64,000 bases of DNA, from positions 1 to 64,000 of the forward strand of contig CALGKJ010000080.1 of assembly GCA_937930535.1 (NCBI GenBank). Direction: 5' to 3'. This DNA comes from an uncultured Clostridia bacterium. GTDB lineage: Bacteria > Bacillota > Clostridia > Lutisporales > Lutisporaceae. The position numbers and the translations under genes were made by a program. Of this stretch, positions 1,735-40,807 are shown piece after piece; position 1 is the stretch's first letter, and each line of letters starts with the position of its first letter. The notes beneath the pieces were generated by a model that had not been told where the DNA came from, did not search any database, and saw only the letters and a list, made by a program, of their open reading frames with translations.

Positions 1735-1820
1735 TTATAGAGTTGGTTATCTATAAAGAGAAACAACTTCAAAACTAAATGTATACAGTTGTTTCTCACA
1801 AAGAGTTAGTTATCTATAGT
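1735..1820 (+). repeat. Repeat A, copy 1 (variant arms)
   Basis: Core hairpin GAGAAACAACT ... AGTTGTTTCTC (about 1757-1798) is the hallmark of family A. In this copy it is flanked by related GTTGGTTATCTATA and GTTAGTTATCTATAG segments instead of the AGCAACTC hairpin of copies 2 and 3. It ends a few bases before the DUF951 ribosome-binding site. Confidence 0.75.
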
Positions 1821-1835
1821 AACAGGAGGTTTAGC

Positions 1836-2060
1836 ATGTATTATCCTAAAAAATTCTATGTTGGAGATATAGTAGAAACTAAAAAAGAGCATCCATGCGG
1901 CAGCAAGCAATGGGAAGTAATACGTGTAGGAGCTGATTTTAAGATAAAATGTATTGGATGCAGCCGGATTGTAATGCTTCCAAGACCTAAGTTTGAAAAA
2001 TCGGTTAAGAAAACAATAAAAAGTGCTGCTCCTGAAGAAAATAATATAGAAAATAGTTGA
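1836..2060 (+). CDS. DUF951 family small protein
   Basis: The protein has 74 residues and starts MYYPKKFYVGDIVETKKEHPCGS, matching the DUF951 family. The function of this family is not established. It has three Cys residues (in PCGS and KCIGC contexts) and a conserved KKxHPCG patch that could bind metal or RNA (inference). The ATG at 1836 is chosen because AGGAGG lies 7 nt upstream. An upstream in-frame ATG at 1779 would place 19 extra residues inside repeat A and has no ribosome-binding site. DUF951 genes commonly lie just before rpsF in Firmicutes, as here. Confidence 0.85.
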   Translation: MYYPKKFYVGDIVETKKEHPCGSKQWEVIRVGADFKIKCIGCSRIVMLPRPKFEKSVKKTIKSAAPEENNIENS

Positions 2061-2146
2061 TATTTAGTTTTATAAGTGATATAATTTATAATTGCGCGTA
2101 AAGTATTTTGTCTATGATAATTTAAGACATGATATTTTCGAAAATT

Positions 2147-2184
2147 CCTCGCTCTATCCTGGTGGTAGGGCCGTTAGTCCGAGG
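2147..2184 (+). promoter_or_regulatory. S6:S18 ribosomal-protein leader-like hairpin upstream of rpsF
   Basis: An outer stem CCTCG (2147-2151) / CGAGG (2180-2184) encloses an inner TCCT/AGGG stem, with an unpaired GGGCCGTTAG stretch on the 3' side that contains a CCG (2171-2173). A bulged CCG beside a short stem is the hallmark of the leader bound by the S6-S18 complex for autoregulation of rpsF operons. It lies 17 nt before the rpsF start. The fold was made by hand. Confidence 0.6.
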
Positions 2185-2200
2185 GGAGGAGGTGAATTTA

Positions 2201-2488
2201 GTGAGAAATAAGTATGAAACTATATACATAATCAAACCTACAGTTGATGAAGAAGGTGTAAAGGCTTTGGTTGAAAAATTCAAGGCAATCATCCTAGCTG
2301 ATGGTGAGATTGATACTTTAGACGAGTGGGGCAAGAGAAAGCTTGCTTACTTGATAGATGATATCGGTGAAGGTTATTATGTGTATACAAAATATAGTGC
2401 CGCTCGTGAAATACCAAAAGAGCTTGATAGAGTATTTGGTATAACAGAGGACATACTAAGACACATGACTATCAGATTGGAACAATAA
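2201..2488 (+). CDS. rpsF: 30S ribosomal protein S6
   Basis: Ribosomal protein S6 has 95 residues (MRNKYETIYIIKPTVDEEGVK ... RHMTIRLEQ) and a single ferredoxin-like domain. It binds 16S rRNA as a heterodimer with S18, encoded two genes downstream. The GTG start at 2201 is chosen because GGAGGAGGTG lies just upstream and because S6 proteins begin close to the YETxYIIKP strand. The longer ATG frame from 2129 would translate through the regulatory leader. It is the first gene of the classic rpsF-ssb-rpsR operon. Confidence 0.95.
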   Translation: MRNKYETIYIIKPTVDEEGVKALVEKFKAIILADGEIDTLDEWGKRKLAYLIDDIGEGYYVYTKYSAAREIPKELDRVFGITEDILRHMTIRLEQ

Positions 2489-2540
2489 TTGCAGCAAATT
2501 AATAGTAATATAAATAGTATAATAAATAGGCGGTGTTTTT

Positions 2541-2945
2541 ATGTTAAATAAGGTTGCCCTGGTAGGCAGACTGACAAAAGACCCCGAAATGAGATATACA
2601 GCGAATAATCAGACTCCTGTTGCAAAGTTTACTGTTGCGGTTACTAGAACCTTCAAAAAAGAAGGTCAGCCGGATGCAGATTTCATACCAGTCGTGGTAT
2701 GGGGCAAACAGGCTGAAAACTGCGGCAGATATATTGCAAAGGGCAGATTAGTAGCTGTATCTGGAAGACTTCAGACCAGAAGCTGGGATGACCAGGATGG
2801 TAAAAGGCATTATGCTACTGAAGTAATAGCTGATGAAGTTGATTTTTTAGATAGAGGTTCTGATTCAAAAGGACAGGGTGCAGATTATGGAATGGGTAAT
2901 GATGATTTCCACCCTGTTGATGGAGAAGACGATCTCCCATTTTAG
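2541..2945 (+). CDS. ssb: Single-stranded DNA-binding protein
   Basis: The protein has 134 residues. An OB fold covers about residues 1-105 (MLNKVALVGRLTKDPEMRYT ... FIPVVVWGKQAENC ... GRLVAVSGRLQTRSW), followed by a short acidic linker and the C-terminal tip DDLPF that recruits replication and repair partners. It coats single-stranded DNA as a tetramer. The linker is shorter than in Bacillus SsbA. It lies between rpsF and rpsR, the conserved order, so expression is probably coupled to ribosomal protein levels. Confidence 0.95.
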   Translation: MLNKVALVGRLTKDPEMRYTANNQTPVAKFTVAVTRTFKKEGQPDADFIPVVVWGKQAENCGRYIAKGRLVAVSGRLQTRSWDDQDGKRHYATEVIADEVDFLDRGSDSKGQGADYGMGNDDFHPVDGEDDLPF

Positions 2946-2965
2946 GTAGATAGGAGGGAAATGAT

Positions 2966-3226
2966 TTGAATAGAAGAGGCGGCGAAAGACAAGGCGGCGG
3001 CGGCGGAAAAATGCGTAAGCCTAAGAAACGCGTTTGCAACTTTTGTATCGACAAAGTTGAACATATAGACTACAAAGATATTAGCAAAATCAGAAGATAT
3101 ATAACTGAAAGAGGAAAGATAATTCCAAGAAGAATTTCCGGTAACTGTGCTAAGCACCAAAGACAGCTTACAGTTGCTATAAAGAGAGCTAGAAATATAG
3201 CTTTCCTACCTTTCACAGCTGAATAA
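2966..3226 (+). CDS. rpsR: 30S ribosomal protein S18
   Basis: S18 has 86 residues with a Gly/Arg-rich N terminus, then [19 protein letters not shown] and the conserved [19 protein letters not shown] core. The start is TTG at 2966, 10 nt after TAGGAGGG; no ATG fits better. The CxxC (CNFC) suggests a zinc-type S18 (inference). It is the last gene of the operon, and a G+C-rich hairpin with a T-run follows. Confidence 0.95.
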
Positions 3227-3232
3227 AGCGAT

Positions 3233-3262
3233 AAAGTCCGGTATATCCGGGCTTTTATTTTT
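3233..3262 (+). terminator. Intrinsic terminator of the rpsF-ssb-rpsR operon
   Basis: AAAGTCCGG / CCGGGCTTT stem with a TATAT loop, followed by TTATTTTT. Confidence 0.85.
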
Positions 3263-3278
3263 AGTGCAAGCAATAATA

Positions 3279-3320
3279 AAACCACTAATCTATATCATAT
3301 AAATTAGTGGTTTATTTTTT
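3279..3320. terminator. Bidirectional terminator between rpsR and the lipoprotein genes
   Basis: Perfect 11-bp stem AAACCACTAAT (3279-3289) / ATTAGTGGTTT (3303-3313) with TTATTTTTT to the right and an A-rich stretch to the left. It would end the minus-strand lipoprotein transcript at 3319. Confidence 0.8.
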
Positions 3321-3957
3321 ACTTAAATTTTACTGTGTTGAGTATATCACTTAACTCCTTGTACTCTTCGTCATTTGTATAGGTTAAAGTAAATATTAGA
3401 GCATGGTCTTTTATAAGTGTTACATATTGCTTTTGTTTAAGTGTAAAGCCTTCCAGCTCCATACTTAAATCGAATGCCTTAAATTCTTTGTTTCCAAGCT
3501 TTTCTGTAGTGATCTCACCAAAGGTATAGGGCATACCTGCCTGCTCCATTGCAGTTTTTGTTGCTGTTAGATAATCTTCAGCGTTTTTAATAGTAACATC
3601 TGTAACCAGCTTTAAGTTTTCTGATAATAGGTTTATGTTTGGATTTAAGCCTTCTGAGTAGGTCATTGGATACTTAGCTGCCATTGCAAGGGCTAGGACT
3701 CTTAGTTTTTCCGGATCCAGTGCATTGTCACCTTCAGCAGCGTTTTCATTGCTTGAGGTTGTAAATTCATCAAGTTCTTCCTTTGTAGCTATATTCCAGC
3801 CTTCTGTGACTTTAAACTCAAGGTTAAAATATTTATTAGTATAGGTATTGTCTTTCATTTCACCGAAGGTAATCTTTTCTTCTTTTTTTGCACAGCCCAT
3901 GGATAGTATAAGTGATACAATTAGTAACACCACTATTATTTTTTTTGAAATTTTCAT
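3319..3957 (-). CDS. Putative lipoprotein, paralogue 1
   Basis: The protein has 212 residues. A lipoprotein signal peptide ends in LSMGC (lipid-attachment C22), so it is probably anchored on the outer face of the membrane. The mature part contains FGEMKDNTYTNKYFNLEFKVTEGWNIATKEEL, a pattern like small Clostridia lipoproteins that share a PsbP/DUF-type fold (inference from pattern only). It shares the same frame of motifs with the neighbouring gene (ITFGEMKDNTYTN vs VTLGEINDNTYTN; QAGMPYTF vs QAGLPYTF), so the two are tandem duplicates. ATG start with GGAGGAGAT upstream. I do not recognise a function. Confidence 0.75.
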   Translation of the reverse strand: MKISKKIIVVLLIVSLILSMGCAKKEEKITFGEMKDNTYTNKYFNLEFKVTEGWNIATKEELDEFTTSSNENAAEGDNALDPEKLRVLALAMAAKYPMTYSEGLNPNINLLSENLKLVTDVTIKNAEDYLTATKTAMEQAGMPYTFGEITTEKLGNKEFKAFDLSMELEGFTLKQKQYVTLIKDHALIFTLTYTNDEEYKELSDILNTVKFK

Positions 3958-4002
3958 AAAATCTCCTCCTTAAATATACTGACAAGTATATGAATCCCTA
4001 AT

Positions 4003-4647
4003 CTATAGCTTTACGGTATTAAGGGTATTTTTTAGTTGAGAGTATTCTTCCTCTGTTGTATAGCTGAGTATAAAGTTCAAAGCATAACCTTCTATTATGG
4101 CTGTATGATACCTTTGTGTTATAACTAAATCACCAAGATTTATAGTAGCATCCATAGTTGTAAATTCTTTGCCGCCGATACTCTCTTTACCATACTCCGA
4201 GAAGGTATATGGCAAGCCGGCTTGCTGCATAAGAGTTTTTGCAGAGTCAAGATAATTCTTGCCAGTCTTTACAGATGCTCCTGCCAAGCCTAAATTCTCT
4301 GCAATACACATAAAATTAGGATTAACACCTTCATTATAATTTAAGGGATGCTTAAATATAAATAAAAGGTTAAGAGTTTTCAGCTTTGCTAAATCAAGCT
4401 GTTTTTCCAGTTTTTTATCATCTCCTGATATTGCTTGATTACCCATATTAGTTAGTTGATCCATTTCTTCCTTTGTTGCAAGATACCAGTCTTTGGGAAT
4501 GTCAATTTTCATGTTGAAGAAATCATTTGTATAGGTGTTGTCATTAATTTCTCCCAAGGTTACATCATTAGTCTTTTTAGTGCATCCGATTAAAAATATG
4601 CTTAATAATATTAATAGGATAACCAATGAATTTTTCAGTGCTTTCAT
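4003..4647 (-). CDS. Putative lipoprotein, paralogue 2
   Basis: The protein has 214 residues with a lipobox FLIGC (C22). It parallels paralogue 1 along its full length: EINDNTYTNDFFNMKIDIPKDWYLATKEEMDQL, then MQQAGLPYTFSE, then a C-terminal ILSYTTEEEYSQLKNTLNTVKL. It lies 45 bp upstream of paralogue 1 on the same strand, and AAAGGAGT precedes the start. The two probably form an operon read leftward. Function unknown; surface location is inferred from the lipobox. Confidence 0.75.
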   Translation of the reverse strand: MKALKNSLVILLILLSIFLIGCTKKTNDVTLGEINDNTYTNDFFNMKIDIPKDWYLATKEEMDQLTNMGNQAISGDDKKLEKQLDLAKLKTLNLLFIFKHPLNYNEGVNPNFMCIAENLGLAGASVKTGKNYLDSAKTLMQQAGLPYTFSEYGKESIGGKEFTTMDATINLGDLVITQRYHTAIIEGYALNFILSYTTEEEYSQLKNTLNTVKL

Positions 4648-4664
4648 ATTATTACTCCTTTCAG

Positions 4665-4772
4665 ATGTTATAGAGAAACAACTTCAAAATTAAATTTATC
4701 CAGTTGTTTCTCACAAAAAGATTAGCAACTCTTAACGAAAAGTATTTTGAGTTTAAGAGTTGGCTATCTAAT
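4665..4772 (+). repeat. Repeat A, copy 2
   Basis: First hairpin GAGAAACAACT (4673-4683) / AGTTGTTTCTC (4702-4712). Then comes a second imperfect hairpin AGCAACTCTTAACG ... TTTAAGAGTTGGCT (about 4722-4766). It starts about 15 bp before the ATG of paralogue 2, on its upstream side. Confidence 0.85.
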
Positions 4773-5050
4773 AAAAAGTACAAAACAAGTTATTCTTTTG
4801 TTATATTGCATAACATAGGATATATCTTGCTGTAGTGTACTCTGTGTAAAATATAAATGGTATTAACAGCTTTTATGTATATATCAAAAAACCATTTATA
4901 TGGCAATAAGTCAATTCAATCATAGACTTATTGCTAAGTCAACAATAATTTGCTTTATATAGAAAGTGCTGAAGAAACACACACTATATTTACATTAGTT
5001 GCCTGTTACTATTTTGTGTGTTAATATAAATATAGATTTTTAACAAAATA
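4773..5050. other. Non-coding AT-rich spacer between repeat A copies
   Basis: I see no credible ORF. The stretch holds AT-rich DNA with weak inverted segments (for example CACACACTATAT ... TTTTGTGTG, about 4979-5020). It lies between two A copies in the same orientation. Confidence 0.4.
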
Positions 5051-5051
5051 C

Positions 5052-5156
5052 ATATAGAGAAACAACTTCAAAATTAAAACATTTCAGTTGTTTCTCACAA
5101 AGAGATTAGCAACTCTTAACGAAAAGTATTTTGAGTTTTAGAGTTGCTAACCTGTA
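5052..5156 (+). repeat. Repeat A, copy 3 (most complete)
   Basis: Hairpin 1 is GAGAAACAACT (5057-5067) / AGTTGTTTCTC (5086-5096). Hairpin 2 is TTAGCAACTC (5106-5115) / GAGTTGCTAA (5141-5150), with perfect arms. The sequence between the hairpin-2 arms is nearly identical to that in copies 2, 4, 5 and 6. Confidence 0.9.
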
Positions 5157-5217
5157 GTTTATCTTATGCACTTATAGTTATAATCATTCAGTAAGCACAT
5201 TTGTTATAATGCAATAA

Positions 5218-5285
5218 TATAGGGAAGCAACCATAAAACTTAACTTATCTATGGCTAGTTATTGCTTTCTATATAGGTTTTTGTT
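5218..5285 (+). repeat. Repeat B, copy 1
   Basis: AGGGAAGCAACCATAAAACT at the left and TTGCTTTCTATATAGGTTTT at the right. The GAAGCAA/TTGCTTT pair forms a long-loop stem. It ends next to the mazG-like ribosome-binding site. Confidence 0.8.
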
Positions 5286-5297
5286 GGGAGGATATAA

Positions 5298-5618
5298 ATG
5301 TTCAATAATGAAACTGACATTACTAAAAACATTAGAGTAATTGAATTCCTTAAAAGTGAACTTTTAACAACAGTAGCTTCTTTATATCAAGTGTTGTTGA
5401 AGGGTACAAAGGTGACACAGGAAATAATTGTAGATATATTAGCAAATCTTATTTTGGTAACTTATCTATTGGGTAAAAGACTAGGTGTTGCTTTTTCTGT
5501 AATCGATACTAAAATTCAGGATAAAATAAGAATAGGTATGCTGGAGGATCATGAAACAGAAAAATGGTATGGTGATCTTTCAGACCTAAGTGATTACCTG
5601 AAAAAGAATAAGAAGTAG
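5298..5618 (+). CDS. MazG-like family protein
   Basis: The protein has 106 residues (MFNNETDITKNIRVIEFLKSELL ... RIGMLEDHETEKWYGDLSDLSDYLKKNKK). It resembles the small MazG-like proteins encoded just upstream of yybS in many Clostridia. It is mostly helical, as expected for an all-alpha NTP pyrophosphatase-like fold. It lacks a clear full set of the acidic metal-binding residues of true MazG, so activity is uncertain. ATG start with GGGAGGAT upstream. The next gene starts 9 bp downstream, so it probably leads the yybS-gdpP-rplI operon. Confidence 0.7.
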   Translation: MFNNETDITKNIRVIEFLKSELLTTVASLYQVLLKGTKVTQEIIVDILANLILVTYLLGKRLGVAFSVIDTKIQDKIRIGMLEDHETEKWYGDLSDLSDYLKKNKK

Positions 5619-5627
5619 AGGTGACTC

Positions 5628-6602
5628 ATGCAACGCTTAGATACTAAAGCAATGGTGGAAGGCGCAATATTTACTGCCATTACAGCTCTTATGGGCATAA
5701 TCATAATATATATACCTTTACTTTCGATTATGTCATATATATGGCCTGTTCCCATAGTTATAGTAGGCTATAGAAATGGCTTAAAAATAAGTATACTATC
5801 AGCTATTGCAGCATCCATTATTATATCCATGTTTACAACACTGGCAAATGGGGCTTTTTTAGTTGCTACACTGGGCTTGCCGGGAATCGTAATGGGATAT
5901 ATGCTAAATAGAAAAATAAAGGTTAATATAGTTGTTCTGATAACAGCAATAGTTTTGTCAATAACCTTGGTTATTTCTATGATAGGTACTATCTATATTT
6001 TTTCGCCTTCAGTCTTTGAAAAAATTAACAGCTTGGATACAGCTTTAGATGAGTTTATTAAAGAAACAAAAGAGGTATATATGAGCTTTGGTGCAGATGA
6101 AGAAACAATTCAGCAAATGCTAGATCGAATATATCAGATGTATGAAATGTTAAGAATTACTTTTCCTATATTAATAGTTGTCAGCAATTTGCCTCTGGCA
6201 TATATGATATTCAAGCTTACAAGGCTGATACTCAAAAGATTAGGCTACAATATTGATGATATGAGCAGCTTTAGTGAATGGGGACTGCCAAGGAATATTA
6301 GAGTACCTGCATTGTTTTTGATGGCTGCTGCACTTTTTAGTAAATATATAAATATTAGCTGGTTAAGTATTATTGCGGCAAATATCAGTGTACTGCTGTC
6401 ATTTGTTTTTTTGGTAATAGGGATATCTGTAGTGGCATTTTATCTTAATATTGCAGCTAAAAAGTATCAGATTCCAAGCGTTGCTAAAGCTATTTTAGCT
6501 ATAATGATTATTCTTATATTTATGATGTTCATACCTGCAATAGGAATAGTTGATACAGCGTTAGATATAAGAAAATGGGCTTCCGAGTTTAGGGAGGTGT
6601 AG
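5628..6602 (+). CDS. yybS: YybS family integral membrane protein (DUF2232)
   Basis: The protein has 324 residues and about eight hydrophobic segments, with a soluble helical stretch around residues 135-180. N-terminal MVEGAIFTAITALMGIIIIY and the overall pattern match DUF2232/YybS, an S-component-like membrane protein of unknown substrate. It is immediately upstream of gdpP and rplI, the order seen in Bacillus. Weak start context (AGAGGTGACTC before the ATG) suggests translational coupling to the mazG-like gene. Confidence 0.85.
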   Translation: MQRLDTKAMVEGAIFTAITALMGIIIIYIPLLSIMSYIWPVPIVIVGYRNGLKISILSAIAASIIISMFTTLANGAFLVATLGLPGIVMGYMLNRKIKVNIVVLITAIVLSITLVISMIGTIYIFSPSVFEKINSLDTALDEFIKETKEVYMSFGADEETIQQMLDRIYQMYEMLRITFPILIVVSNLPLAYMIFKLTRLILKRLGYNIDDMSSFSEWGLPRNIRVPALFLMAAALFSKYINISWLSIIAANISVLLSFVFLVIGISVVAFYLNIAAKKYQIPSVAKAILAIMIILIFMMFIPAIGIVDTALDIRKWASEFREV

Positions 6603-35093: not shown

Positions 35094-36287
35094 GTGGGCA
35101 ATTTTGATGATGGCAGAGGGGATTATAGACAAAATAATATAAGGCATTTACGTAATAAAAGACCATCAATAGCAGCTTATTTTGCGGTAGGCTTGATAGG
35201 AGCTATTATTGGAGGCTTTATAATGGCTGCAATTGCACCATACTATATATATGGGAAAATACTGCCTTTTCCCGGTAATACGAGAGACGCTACTCGAGAA
35301 CAACAAATGGCGCAGCCAATTGTATTAAATCCAGCGGATAATATAACAGTTGCCAGTGCCGTAGCCAGGAAGGTAATGCCATCCGTAGTAGGCATTAGTA
35401 CCGTTACCATAGAGAGAGATGTTTTTGGCAAAGGAAAAAGGTTAGAGGGCATAGGTTCGGGAGTTATAGTTCATACTGATGGCTACATACTTACAAACTC
35501 ACATGTAGTTACACAAGACCCAAGCAGGATAACTGTTTATTTTATGGATGGAAAAGAGCTTCATGCTGACTTGTTATGGCAGGATGTGACTCTGGACTTA
35601 GCTGTAATAAAGGTTGATGCAAGAAACCTCAATCTTACAGCAGCCGCATTAGGTGATTCTGACAATGTACTGGTAGGTGAAACTGCTATAGCAATCGGCA
35701 ATCCTCTTGGCTTGCGTTATGAAAGAACTGTTACTCAGGGTATAATATCAGGATTAAATCGCAGCATATGGCTATCGGAAACAGAGCTTATGGAGGATTT
35801 GATACAAACTGATGCTGCCATAAATCCAGGCAACAGCGGAGGTCCCCTTATTAACAGCAGCGGGGAAATAATAGGTATCAATACCGTAAAAGCAGCAACT
35901 GCAGAAGGTTTGGGATTTGCTATCCCCATAAATGTAACTAAACCAGTAGTCAGAAAGTTTGCAGAAACTGGAGAATTTGTACCTACTTATATGGGTATTA
36001 AGCTTTTAGACAGTGAATTTGCAAATATTTATTATCCGGAAGTAGATTTAAAAAGAGGTATATTGATCACAGAAGTAATATCAAATGCTCCTGCTGAACA
36101 AGGAGGCTTGAGATCCAAGGATATACTTACACATATAGACAATATTGAAATAAATACGATGCTGAAATTCAAAAGCGTGCTATATGCCAAGAACCCCAAT
36201 GATAGAGTAGTTGTAAGATATTTAAGGGGCGGAAAGATATTTGAAACAGAAATAACACTGCAAGCAAAACCAAGGGAGACTAGATAA
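35094..36287 (+). CDS. htrA: HtrA-like membrane-anchored serine protease (DegP/HtrC type)
   Basis: The protein has 397 residues. One membrane helix lies at about 30-55. The trypsin-like domain has H137 (TNSHVV), D168 (LDLAVIKVD) and S248 (NPGNSGGPL). A C-terminal PDZ domain (about 290-390, [22 protein letters not shown]) follows. It is an envelope quality-control protease. The GTG at 35094 is chosen because AGGAGG lies 8 nt upstream. The stop overlaps the rlmH start. The yycJ-htr-rlmH order matches Bacillus. Confidence 0.93.
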
Positions 36288-36766
36288 TGAACATTTCGAT
36301 AATTACAGTAGGAAAATTAAAGGAAAAATATATAAGAGAAGCGGTGGCAGAGTATGCCACCCGCTTAACCAAGTATTGCAAGCTCGAAATAATTGAAGTA
36401 CAAGACGAAAAAGCTCCAGAGAACCTAAGTGTTGCTCAGGAGCTTATTGTTAAGGAAAAGGAAGGACAAGCAATACTAAAGCACATAAAGGATGATACCT
36501 ATGTGATAGCTTTAGCCATAAATGGCAAAATGCTGTCCTCAGAAAAGCTGGCAGATTTTATCAATGATCTGGGTATAAGAGGCAGAAGCAGTATAGCCTT
36601 TGTAATAGGAGGTTCACTAGGGTTAAGTGAAGAGGTGCTGAAACGGTCGGATTATCAGTTGTCATTTTCGCCTATGACGTTTCCCCACCAGTTGATGAGG
36701 GTGATACTGTTAGAGCAGGTTTATAGGGGGTTTCGGATTATTCGGGGGGAACCTTATCATAAGTGA
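36287..36766 (+). CDS. rlmH: 23S rRNA pseudouridine1915 N3-methyltransferase RlmH
   Basis: The protein has 159 residues. It is a SPOUT-fold methyltransferase that modifies pseudouridine 1915 in helix 69 of 23S rRNA. Visible marks are [19 protein letters not shown] at the N terminus, [13 protein letters not shown] (SAM knot region) and the conserved end [22 protein letters not shown]. The length is normal and the gene looks intact. Its 3' end is the attachment site of SCC elements in staphylococci, and here this end is duplicated at 38254-38274. Confidence 0.96.
36746..36766 (+). other. Left att-like site at the rlmH 3' end
   Basis: Codons for GEPYHK and stop, containing the core CCTTATCATAAGT (36752-36764). 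An inverted repeat ATTTTT-G-AAAAAT (36773-36785) lies just inside. Confidence 0.75.
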
Positions 36767-37052
36767 TGGGGGATTTTTGAAAAATATAGATAGCGACAAC
36801 TTTAAGTAAATTCAAATACTAATCTATATTACAACCTCTGAAATGCAGATGAAAGATCAAGTTGTTCTATAGATTATAACAAGCAATAGAAATTAACGCC
36901 TATACATACTATAAATTGCCAGTGATAAAAATCATTTATGATTGAAATAGATTCAAATGATAGGCTGATATAATTTCCAATATTAATGACAGCTTACATA
37001 TTATAACTTATAAGCTAATCAGCAAATTTTTCATAATGAAAGGGTGGTGTCA

Positions 37053-38066
37053 ATGCCTGATACAATATTAATTGGAACCAGTATAGAAAATTATGTTGCA
37101 TACAAACTTTATAAGTGGGATATATTGGTGGCTAAACCGTATTTCGATAGAAATGGTGCTGATTTACTTGCTTTAAGAAAGGTTGATAGGGAGGCAAAAT
37201 TTATTAGAATACAGTCTAAAGGCAGAACTATAAAAGGTAATCATACGTCATCGTTAGAAATACCTAAGTCCTACGTAGATAAAGATTTTGTTGTTTTTTT
37301 ACATATAGAAATTGAGCGAATTGATGACGAGAATGAAATATATTTATATTGTTATTTTACTGATGATATTACAAAATGGGACTGTGACAAAGATAATTAT
37401 AAGTTATATATACCAAACAAATTCTATGAGAAAGATAGTTTTAAAGTATGTTTATTCAACAAAGAAAAAGCACATAAAATCATAGAAATAATTGAGAATG
37501 CAAATGTTGAAGAAAGCTTTGACAAATATATTAATAACTTTGATGGCATGTTAGAATCATGCATTTCAATGTGGAAAAAAGCTAATATATTGCCTGATAC
37601 TGATATTCTTGAGGTGCTAGCAGAAAAACTAGATTTCAATCAAACTAATTTATATCAAAATGAGTTCTTGTTTTACAGTGCATTTTATAAACATGATGCA
37701 TTAAGTGAAAAAAATTGGAATGCTTCACTGGAATTTCTATTTCACTACATAGCAGCAGAAAATAATTTAGAAGAGTCGATTTTTAGCAAATATGTCTTAA
37801 AGCGAATTAAGTACAGTAATAGTATGTTTAGTGATTGGTATATTTGTTATAGAAAATATTCAATTGCTTCAATAGTATTAGAGTGTAATGGATTAGACTT
37901 AGAAGGATTATATTGTTTTTGTAGAGATAGCGAAGGTGAAGGTATTGAATATTTTATTTGCAAAGAAAATAGGCAGTTTTCATGCGTTAGACATATTCAA
38001 TATAACGCAAAAAATGAACATATTAAAGTAATAAAACTAATAGAAGAATTTAATACATATGAGTAA
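37053..38066 (+). CDS. Putative PD-(D/E)XK nuclease-like protein, cassette cargo
   Basis: The protein has 337 residues and I do not recognise a named family. Residues 1-60 show the spacing of a restriction-endonuclease-like core: E12 in a helix (SIENYVAYKL), D37 (NGADLL) and Q54-x-K56 (RIQSKGR), close to Holliday-resolvase or Mrr-type motifs. The rest (about 60-337) has no clear motif and may recognise substrate. No membrane or signal segment. I choose ATG at 37053 over GTG at 37044 because AAAGGGTGG lies just upstream. No adjacent methylase or partner is encoded. A defence role is inference from fold and location. Confidence 0.6.
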   Translation: MPDTILIGTSIENYVAYKLYKWDILVAKPYFDRNGADLLALRKVDREAKFIRIQSKGRTIKGNHTSSLEIPKSYVDKDFVVFLHIEIERIDDENEIYLYCYFTDDITKWDCDKDNYKLYIPNKFYEKDSFKVCLFNKEKAHKIIEIIENANVEESFDKYINNFDGMLESCISMWKKANILPDTDILEVLAEKLDFNQTNLYQNEFLFYSAFYKHDALSEKNWNASLEFLFHYIAAENNLEESIFSKYVLKRIKYSNSMFSDWYICYRKYSIASIVLECNGLDLEGLYCFCRDSEGEGIEYFICKENRQFSCVRHIQYNAKNEHIKVIKLIEEFNTYE

Positions 38067-38237
38067 TAGTAAAATATTGGTGATTGGTAAGGTATAAATC
38101 TTATAATATTGATTTTGAGTTGATTATTACAAAACTACTTATGTAAGATTTATTTGAAATAAGGAACAAGGAGACAGATACCTTATCACTATTTTACAAG
38201 ACGCTAATCAATAGTTTCAATAATTGCTTAAAAAACC

Positions 38238-38251
38238 ACCGTTAAAACGGT
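38238..38251. other. Inverted repeat beside the right att-like site
   Basis: ACCGTT-AA-AACGGT, perfect 6-bp arms, two bases before the duplicated GEPYHK codons. Confidence 0.6.
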
Positions 38252-38253
38252 AC

Positions 38254-38274
38254 GGGGAGCCTTATCATAAGTAG
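38254..38274 (+). other. Right att-like site (duplicated rlmH 3' codons)
   Basis: GGG GAG CCT TAT CAT AAG TAG again encodes GEPYHK and stop, with the core CCTTATCATAAGT at 38260-38272. No ORF of the rlmH type precedes it. Confidence 0.75.
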
Positions 38275-38373
38275 TAGTTTATACCGAGAAGATTTGTTAT
38301 CTGTACGGTGTAAATAATATTATTATAGGTGTATAATAGTATTAATAGATATAAAAATACATGGGGTGATTCT

Positions 38374-38994
38374 ATGACGGATATATTTACAATTGGATAT
38401 TCATGTTTTAAAATAGACGAATTTATTAAAATTCTTAAAAAATATAAAATAAATAGTTTGATAGATGTAAGAAGTAATCCTAATTCAAAGTTCTACAAGG
38501 ATTATAATCAAAGTAATTTAGAAAAGGTATTGAAGATGCATGGAATTATTTATAGAAATTATAAGAATGAATTTGGTGCACGGCAAGAAAATCTAAAGTA
38601 TTACAGAAATGGATATTTAGATTTTAAAGAGTATACTAGATCTGATGCTTTTATAGAAGGGGTGCACAAAATAGAGGCTGGGATTAAATTGAATTATTCT
38701 TTTGCCTTCATGTGTGCCGAGAAAGATCCGAGCACTTGTCACAGAAATATAATGGTAGCTAGAGAATTTTATGAATTAGGGTATAATGTAAAGAATATAC
38801 TTTCAGATGGTTCATATGAATCTCAGGAAAGTATTGAACAAAGACTCGTGAACCAGTACTTCCCAAACAGAAGTCAAGTAACACTTTTTTCTGAAAACAT
38901 TACATGGAATGATATGGTTAATAAAAGCTATGAATATAGAAACAGCGAAATAGGTTATAGAATTAATGAAGAAGTAAAGGTGAGTATATCGTGA
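38374..38994 (+). CDS. DUF488 domain protein, first copy
   Basis: The protein has 206 residues. DUF488 marks are TIGYS near the N terminus, DVRSNPNSKFYKDYN, and FMCAEKDPSTCHRN (C...CHR motif). The function of DUF488 is not established; members occur in accessory clusters. I choose ATG at 38374 because GGGGTGAT lies 6 nt upstream; an in-frame ATG at 38329 has no site. Its stop overlaps the GTG of the next DUF488 gene, so the pair is translationally coupled. Confidence 0.82.
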   Translation: MTDIFTIGYSCFKIDEFIKILKKYKINSLIDVRSNPNSKFYKDYNQSNLEKVLKMHGIIYRNYKNEFGARQENLKYYRNGYLDFKEYTRSDAFIEGVHKIEAGIKLNYSFAFMCAEKDPSTCHRNIMVAREFYELGYNVKNILSDGSYESQESIEQRLVNQYFPNRSQVTLFSENITWNDMVNKSYEYRNSEIGYRINEEVKVSIS

Positions 38995-39455
38995 TAGGAC
39001 TCATATATACTATTGGATTTACACAAAAAACTGCACAAGCTTTTTTTCAATTGTTAAAGGAGCATAACATAGACATTGTACTGGACATTCGGTTAAACAA
39101 TACATCGCAGTTAGCAGCATTTACAAAATACCCAGACATACAATATTTTTTAAAAGAAATTTGTAATATAGAGTACATTCATGATACTAAATTTTCTCCT
39201 ACTAATTCAACTTTAAAAAAATATAAAAACGGCGAAATAGATTGGATTCAATATGTTGAAGAGTTTATTCAAACAATGAACGATAGAAAAATTAAGGAAT
39301 ATATACAATTAAATTATAAAACCAATAAAAAAATTTGCCTGCTTTGTAGCGAGTCCACAGCAAATCAGTGTCATAGAAGCTTAATTGCCAATGAGTTCAA
39401 AACATGGCGAGTATTGTATTGCTGGGGTGGACACAACCAGTGGCGAATGGATTAG
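38991..39455 (+). CDS. DUF488 domain protein, second copy
   Basis: The protein has 154 residues. It keeps TIGFTQKT, DIRLNN and LLCSESTANQCHRSL, the same landmarks as its neighbour. Its start is GTG at 38991, overlapping the previous stop. The last 16 residues (from about TWRVLY) read across the start of the next gene in another frame and may be an artefact of lost frame downstream. Paired unequal DUF488 genes followed by a dual-OB gene are known as a recurring set (from memory). Confidence 0.75.
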   Translation: MIGLIYTIGFTQKTAQAFFQLLKEHNIDIVLDIRLNNTSQLAAFTKYPDIQYFLKEICNIEYIHDTKFSPTNSTLKKYKNGEIDWIQYVEEFIQTMNDRKIKEYIQLNYKTNKKICLLCSESTANQCHRSLIANEFKTWRVLYCWGGHNQWRMD

Positions 39456-39913
39456 ACCAGTTTCTGTCACATAATCCAACTAAATCTCAACCAGAGAATT
39501 ATAAATATGATTCTTCAGTGTGTTGGCAAAGAACAGGGAAAATTACATTATATGACTTAATAAAAAATAGAGGCTTTGATAAACCAGACAAGATTTTCTA
39601 TAATAGTAAAAAAGATGTTTTGGAAGATGAGTTATGTGGACAACCCTCATTATTATTTGTAAATGTAAAAAACTCATCCATTTTTATCAAGACTTTTAGT
39701 GATGGTAATAGGCGAATTCAGTTTAATTTTCAATACAATAATATCTCTTATAACTATTTTAAAATAAGTGATGAAGTAATTAAAAATGTTTTTGCTAATC
39801 AATGTGATGGTTTATATAATTATAGAGAAAATTTACCGGTTATATTTAGTTTAACTGATAGGTATAGCAATACAGGTAAATATTATAAAATGGTTGCTCA
39901 GATGTTTTATTAA
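39404..39913 (+). pseudogene. Frameshifted dual-OB-domain-like gene
   Basis: The frame from ATG 39404 gives a good second half (QPENYKYDSSVCWQRTGKIT then QPSLLFVNVKNSSIFIK), which fits dual-OB-domain proteins that accompany DUF488. The N-terminal hallmark, CIAGVDTTSGEWIRPVS, is encoded at 39415-39465 but in a different frame (+2 relative to the ATG). One missing base near 39414 would restore the start; a second frame change with probable loss of about 40 codons is needed near 39465-39475. I read the gene as broken, although a sequencing error cannot be excluded. Confidence 0.6.
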
Positions 39914-39925
39914 AGTATAGGTAAT

Positions 39926-39966
39926 TAAAAAAGGCAAGTAGGGTATTCTCTATTTGCCTTTTTTCT
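39926..39966. terminator. Bidirectional terminator after the DUF488 cluster
   Basis: AAAAAAGGCAAGTAG / CTATTTGCCTTTTTT with a GGTATTCT loop. Confidence 0.85.
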
Positions 39967-40135
39967 GTAATATGAAAAGAGAAGGAATATAAACCACAAA
40001 ATAAGTCATAAACCATTAAAAAACCATTCTTTCACTCGGATTTATGCTATAATCTCCTTATAGAAAACGTTTGCCGCATTTTTATACGCAGAAAAGTAAA
40101 AGCAGGATTTGATACGAAATGGAGGTTGAGGTTAT

Positions 40136-40807
40136 ATGGATACATACAAAATTATTGAGATTAAGCAAAGTGTTTTCGAGGACAACAATAAGGACGCAGA
40201 TTTACTTAGGGAAGAATTGAAAAAGGGTAAAACCTTTTTACTGAATTTGATGTCATCACCGGGTTCGGGTAAAACAACAACGGTTTTGCGGACTATTGAG
40301 GCTTTGAAGGAAGAAATGGGCATAGGAGTTCTTGAGGCTGATATTGACTCAGATGTGGATGCTCGAACTGTTGCGCAGACAGGTGCAAAGGTAATTCAGC
40401 TTCATACAGGCGGGATGTGCCATCTGGATGCAGATATGACTAGGCAGGGGCTGTTGGGGCTGGGTACAGAAGGAATAGATTTTGTCATATTGGAGAACGT
40501 GGGTAATTTGGTATGTCCGGCAGAGTTTGATACTGGTGCATCAAAAAACGCCATGATTTTAAGTGTTCCAGAGGGAGATGACAAGCCTCTGAAATATCCT
40601 TTAATGTTTTCGATTGTTGATGTTTTATTAATTAACAAGATTGACGTAATAGATTATTTTGATTTTGACTTGGAAGCAGTCAAGGAACGTGCAAAAAAAA
40701 TAAATCCCAATATTAAGATTATTCCAATCTCTGCTAGAACCGGGGAGGGAATTGATGAATGGGCTAATTGGATACGAACAGAAATAAAAAAATGGAAACA
40801 AGAATAG
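40136..40807 (+). CDS. hypB: Hydrogenase nickel incorporation GTPase HypB
   Basis: The protein has 223 residues. G-domain motifs are SSPGSGKTTTV (P-loop), EADIDSDVDA, a GGMCHLDADM metal-binding segment with Cys and His, ENVGNLVCPAEFD and NKIDV. HypB uses GTP to insert nickel into [NiFe] hydrogenase. It has no His-rich nickel-storage N terminus. ATG after GGAGGTTGAGG. It is followed 36 bp later by an iron-sulfur flavoprotein and then hypA; no hydrogenase subunit is in the window. Confidence 0.93.
   Translation: MDTYKIIEIKQSVFEDNNKDADLLREELKKGKTFLLNLMSSPGSGKTTTVLRTIEALKEEMGIGVLEADIDSDVDARTVAQTGAKVIQLHTGGMCHLDADMTRQGLLGLGTEGIDFVILENVGNLVCPAEFDTGASKNAMILSVPEGDDKPLKYPLMFSIVDVLLINKIDVIDYFDFDLEAVKERAKKINPNIKIIPISARTGEGIDEWANWIRTEIKKWKQE

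Follow-up and report, generated by a model that had tools for sequence, protein, structure and literature searches.

The locus considered here raises the question of whether a second copy of the rlmH tail, lying 1508 bp downstream of the first, marks the end of a mobile cassette and, if so, what kind of enzyme could have moved it. SCC elements, which occupy this place in the chromosome, are known mainly as methicillin-resistance carriers in staphylococci, and ccr-less cassettes of the SCC type are termed pseudo-SCC by staphylococcal workers. The DNA analyzed (64,000 nucleotides from an uncultured bacterium of the Clostridia family Lutisporaceae; below, the window) had previously been subject to a sequence-only reading, which claimed that the 3' codons of rlmH recur at 38254–38274, that small inverted repeats lie at the inner ends of the segment so delimited, and that the whole suggests an SCC-type attachment system with no ccr gene inside. 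Taking all the evidence below into account, we consider it very probable that this 1508-bp segment represents a passive (ccr-less), pseudo-SCC-like cassette of the SCC type, presumably moved by a recombinase supplied in trans. The features of the locus are listed in Table 1.

Table 1. Positions of rlmH, the predicted cassette with its attachment sites, and the right-hand neighbors in the window.
Feature	Coordinates	Strand	Remarks
rlmH	36287–36766	+	159 aa, intact, C-terminal GEPYHK-stop (TGA); Pfam PF02590, E=1.3e-60
Left attachment site = rlmH tail, GGGGAACCTTATCATAAGTGA	36746–36766	+	Predicted crossover dinucleotide GA, 36749–36750
Cassette unit, 1508 bp	36751–38258	+	Between two predicted crossovers, spacing 1508
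Left inner arm, ACCTTATCATAAGTGATGGGGGATTTTTG	36751–36779	+	Compare ACC..TATCATAAGTAATGCGGTTTTT in other cassettes
Orphan ORF, 340 aa	37044–38066	+	Sole large ORF of the cassette; weak N-terminal PD-(D/E)XK_5 resemblance, E=0.035, below cut-off
Right inner arm, AAAAAACCACCGTTAAAACGGTACGGG	38230–38256	+	Repeats the left inner arm in inverted, degenerate form
Right attachment site = tail copy, GGGGAGCCTTATCATAAGTAG	38254–38274	+	Predicted crossover GA, 38257–38258; translation would again read GEPYHK-stop
DUF488 protein, PDC-M45B (candidate defense system)	38329–38994	+	PADLOC; outside the cassette
DUF488 protein, PDC-M45C	38991–39455	+	PADLOC
DuOB protein, PDC-M45A	39404–39913	+	N-terminal third of the domain missing; Pfam match from profile position 62 of 210

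The claimed recurrence of the rlmH codons is borne out. The 19-mers GGGGAACCTTATCATAAGT (36746–36764) and GGGGAGCCTTATCATAAGT (38254–38272) are identical at 18 positions, i.e., differ by one mismatch, and only one out of 2000 shuffles of the region 36767–40136 yielded a 19-mer with at most three mismatches from the rlmH tail. The window contains two exact copies of the 13-bp core CCTTATCATAAGT, and so does the entire 4.69-Mb assembly, these being the 36746/38254 repeat pair, so that the whole-genome count suggested earlier reveals no third copy. When one mismatch is allowed, the whole assembly contains 17 matches, the same number as for the reversed-pattern control; hence the core alone is weak evidence, and what counts is the 19–21-mer together with its arms. 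This lack of excess is the point in favor of a chance repeat, a reading whose probability we nevertheless regard as negligible, given the shuffles, the recurrence of the repeat in relatives (see below), and a site profile constructed from 40 non-rlmH sites of relatives with the window excluded. The latter assigns 35.7 bits to position 38254, 14.6 to the rlmH tail, and 7.0 to the next-best non-rlmH place, the maxima on five shuffles being 2.5–10.2 bits; placing 38254 above every other position was the outcome set as decisive against chance. The copy at 38254 is thus confirmed as a real repeat of the rlmH tail.

The small inverted repeats are present as well, at 36773–36785 (ATTTTTGAAAAAT) and 38238–38251 (ACCGTTAAAACGGT), but both fall within a single larger att palindrome of degenerate sequence, whose two inner arms contain them. 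The sites are near-palindromes centered on GA in the motif GGN-GA-RCC: with the inner five positions left out, arm complementarity is maximal at GA (0.42, vs. 0.19–0.31 at neighboring centers), and this symmetry points to GA as the likely crossover dinucleotide. The outer arms at the predicted joint of the window are 40% complementary, and thus its inverted repeats are degenerate. Elsewhere, two tail copies face each other and form a full palindrome resembling an ideal attP, namely, at G007:C18:6255–6288 in a relative and at G000:C61:67243–67276 on another contig of the window genome (G000). Many tail copies (e.g., sites in G014, G007, G008, and G021) are followed by a conserved terminator-like hairpin, ACAGCCCAGAAGC...GCTTCTGGGCTGTTTT.

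This architecture suggests the following mechanism. A large serine recombinase, either a Ccr-type enzyme or one like the ~700-aa proteins of the Lutispora relatives, would insert a cassette circle at the rlmH tail, with strand exchange at GA of GGN-GA-RCC. The left end of the cassette would supply the last rlmH codons (PYHK-stop), which is why rlmH would stay intact, and the displaced chromosomal tail would become the mark of the right end. On this view, the unit would have been brought in by an enzyme supplied in trans or would be what that enzyme left in place. We infer that an enzyme of the Ccr kind moved the unit of the window; that its gene was located elsewhere (or disappeared when part of a larger element was deleted) and that the unit can still move are likewise extrapolations.

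Insertion at the 3'-end of rlmH with direct repeats of the tail and inverted repeats of degenerate sequence just inside both ends, features of SCC elements, are found in the unit, and ccr is absent; bounds formed by the rlmH tail combined with the lack of ccr correspond to a pseudo-SCC, in a host that is not a staphylococcus. The statement that no ccr gene lies inside holds, since the sole large ORF is the 340-aa orphan, and neither a recombinase gene nor its remnant was found in the 1508 bp by the ORF and family search. No homologues of the orphan besides itself were found in 391 genomes of the class, and its single-sequence fold prediction is uninformative (mean pLDDT 38.8). Beyond the second repeat lie three parts of the PADLOC candidate system PDC-M45, followed by hypB. 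The first ~61 DuOB positions are absent from PDC-M45A, which overlaps the preceding gene in another frame and is probably a damaged gene. A third att site was considered as the right end of PDC-M45 and rejected, the best profile score in 39850–40140 being -15.4; as the profile detects no further site between the 38254 copy and hypB, the right boundary of this segment is undefined.

Similar organization is observed in relatives. The rlmH-tail motif has 48 matches in 22 relatives, compared to one for the reversed pattern, and about 110 matches compared to one in the 391 genomes of the class. The HtrA–rlmH order upstream is common to the relatives, and the region downstream of rlmH differs in each. 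Extra tail copies on the same contig and strand downstream of rlmH were found in at least seven out of 14 family genomes with located rlmH, the window genome included (G000, G007, G008, G011, G014, G016, G021); seven is a lower bound, since some contigs of the other seven end soon after rlmH. In G011, four tail copies bound three single-gene units (encoding an AraC/GyrI protein, a Gate-domain protein, and a DEAD helicase), and tandem tail-bounded units are likewise present in G014 and G008. In Lutispora saccharofermentans (G016) and in G021, the gene of a ~700-aa large serine recombinase directly follows rlmH, and the element ends at a tail copy 14–16 kb further on; the element termini form the inverted repeat GAGTCATGTATT centered, as read by eye, on GA of GGT-GA-ACC. 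The G021 recombinase is weakly Ccr-like (120 bits to CcrC).

In the suggested search for an empty site, none of the relatives examined was found to have an exact one for the 1508-bp unit, and rlmH was not seen in the other examined genome of the same genus; turnover behind rlmH is apparent from the sister genomes G017 and G016, where the distance from rlmH to the shared flank is 2.9 and 17.3 kb, respectively, a difference that is not a clean empty site. A divergent RlmH-like ORF of ~130 aa lies inside the recombinase element of L. saccharofermentans (G016:C15:7250–7639). Since this element inserted, the host rlmH has ended with GER instead of GEPYHK, and the ORF is possibly a replacement copy. 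On another contig of the window genome, two tail-like copies of one orientation (G000:C69:3978 and 7280) are 3.3 kb apart, with ORFs of 486, 190, and 375 aa between them.

Within the family, G016 and G021 have recombinase-bearing elements at rlmH, and PDC-M45A next door is visibly decayed. Both observations are what one would expect if the unit were a remnant of a larger SCC-like element, in which an internal deletion removed the ccr part and left one ORF between the att sites. We consider this unlikely, as the unit contains no trace of a recombinase, and units of 1–2 kb, some of them single-gene with intact ends, stand in tandem in many genomes and are more simply explained as having moved as such. 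The passive cassette remains the preferred reading.

CcrB homologues occur in tail-bounded elements of other Clostridia. In G326, a one-contig clostridial genome, an element of 13.7 kb begins at rlmH and has a CcrB homologue (324 bits) at its far end; then come a tail copy, a blaI/blaR-like passive unit (named by eye from its ORFs), and another tail copy. Two more cases come from stretches in which rlmH was not seen: in G392, tail copies 17.6 kb apart flank a CcrB homologue (383 bits), and the homologue of Anaerovirgula (428 bits) is preceded by a DUF927/Cch-HTH helicase and followed, 0.6 kb further on, by a tail copy. Of the 391 class genomes, three pass the threshold E 1e-80 for CcrB, two of them within tail-bounded elements, the third being G193. 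In every case the score falls far short of the 900-bit equivalog cut-off set by NCBIfam, and thus the proteins are homologues and not CcrB in the staphylococcal sense. Together with the tandem tail-bounded units and the GA-centered near-palindromes, CcrB homologues inside tail-bounded clostridial elements support the earlier proposal of an SCC-type attachment system in Clostridia.

The tail is not limited to this class. Scanning GTDB with a pattern of the rlmH tail preceded by AC yielded at least 119 stretches and, after removal of rlmH-internal sites, at least 123 extra copies in at least 100 loci, mostly from Bacillota (rlmH and extra copies were told apart by blast hit or codon pattern, not site by site); a scan of viral contigs yielded six stretches. 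Among the matches listed for named genomes, copies share a single orientation at each of the 31 loci where at least two occur, and in 17 out of 18 rlmH/extra-copy pairs the extra copy is downstream on the rlmH strand. Many tail copies lie elsewhere than at rlmH, and hence not every copy marks an insertion at rlmH. Such copies, some of them full palindromes (G007:C18, G000:C61), and the conserved hairpin after the copy in G014 would agree with a dispersed palindrome, REP- or terminator-like, that overlaps the rlmH end by accident and spreads without site-specific recombination. The uniform orientation just described argues against this reading, as do the copies bounding a Ccr-bearing element that starts at rlmH, and we regard it as highly improbable compared with a site-specifically moved cassette. 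Shared content between units was noted in two cases, selected from a search that covered 68 units and not indicative of a rate: a ~1.7-kb unit is 94% identical in Lederbergia citrisecunda and Bacillus sp. FJAT-29790, with homology ending at the tail on one side and ~130 bp beyond it on the other, and an ABC-ATPase gene is common to units of a Clostridiaceae MAG and Paenibacillus mangrovi (1765 bp at 78%). An AraC-type regulator gene standing alone in a tail-bounded unit is a recurrent finding in different clostridial genomes (loci L165, L158, L050).

In staphylococcal composite regions, e.g., in S. stepanovicii, tail repeats partition the stretch after rlmH (PMC4723332). As in such pseudo-SCC and composite SCC, where tail repeats with synonymous and stop-codon variation delimit units of differing content (PMC4723332), the unit described here is bounded by tail copies; unlike them, it has a clostridial host, unrelated cargo, and a tail encoding GEPYHK and not EAYHK or ESYHK. 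SCC-like elements at rlmH outside staphylococci have already been described, namely, the Pol-SSB elements of Bacillota, located downstream of rlmH, with tandem composites noted (2023; PMC10061031), and the unit of the window adds to them. These elements have large serine recombinases, and their second end was identified from its match to the terminal ~12 bp of rlmH; their examples from C. difficile and C. perfringens reside in ssrA, not rlmH (PMC10061031). The Pol-SSB elements carry primase, helicase, and recombinase genes, whereas our unit has none of these. It shares with the elements of L. saccharofermentans and G021 the place at rlmH and, as read by eye, the GGT-GA-ACC center, and differs from them in that they possess their own inverted repeats and a weakly Ccr-like recombinase and span 14–16 kb. 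The literature searched, which reached few subscription papers, contains no description of rlmH cassettes in Clostridia.

Integrons form tandem arrays of small cassettes that share a recombination site and depend on a tyrosine integrase and attC. Units of the type described here are similarly small, tandem, in some cases single-gene, and share one site; in contrast to integron cassettes, a serine recombinase is inferred, no integrase platform was seen, and a housekeeping gene's end serves as the site. The same site, the same kind of cassette, and the CcrB homologues in Clostridia suggest that the SCC machinery is an old and widely used route of gene exchange in Bacillota. Tentatively, and with more doubt than confidence, one may go further and propose that gene capture takes place at the rlmH tail throughout Bacillota: small passive cassettes, some with a single ordinary gene, would circulate among genera, and even among classes, and be strung together behind rlmH by recombinases supplied in trans; if true, this would in effect be a serine-recombinase counterpart of the integron. 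The interest lies in the spread in Clostridia and in the sharing of cassettes between genera, and GGNGARCCNTAYCAYAARTRR with its arms provides a sequence handle for mapping this route.

Finally, the search for Ccr-like recombinases proposed in the sequence-only reading did yield 12 recombinase-domain hits in the window genome, seven of which were scored directly against the NCBIfam Ccr models, but no obvious cognate enzyme for the unit among them. The identity of these proteins to the site-linked recombinases is at most about 37% over short stretches and 35% over full length. Given that the assembly consists of 252 contigs with 97% completeness, the cognate enzyme may be missing from it. The best CcrB-like hit (251–253 bits) is located on contig C60, adjoining dpaA and away from rlmH. 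A CcrB-like recombinase beside dpaA is observed in two genomes, at G000:C60 (locus L058), 3140–6064, and at G010:C97 (locus L295), 1807–6196; in G010, dpaB appears split around the CcrB-like protein, resembling spoVFB intervening elements excised in sporulation.
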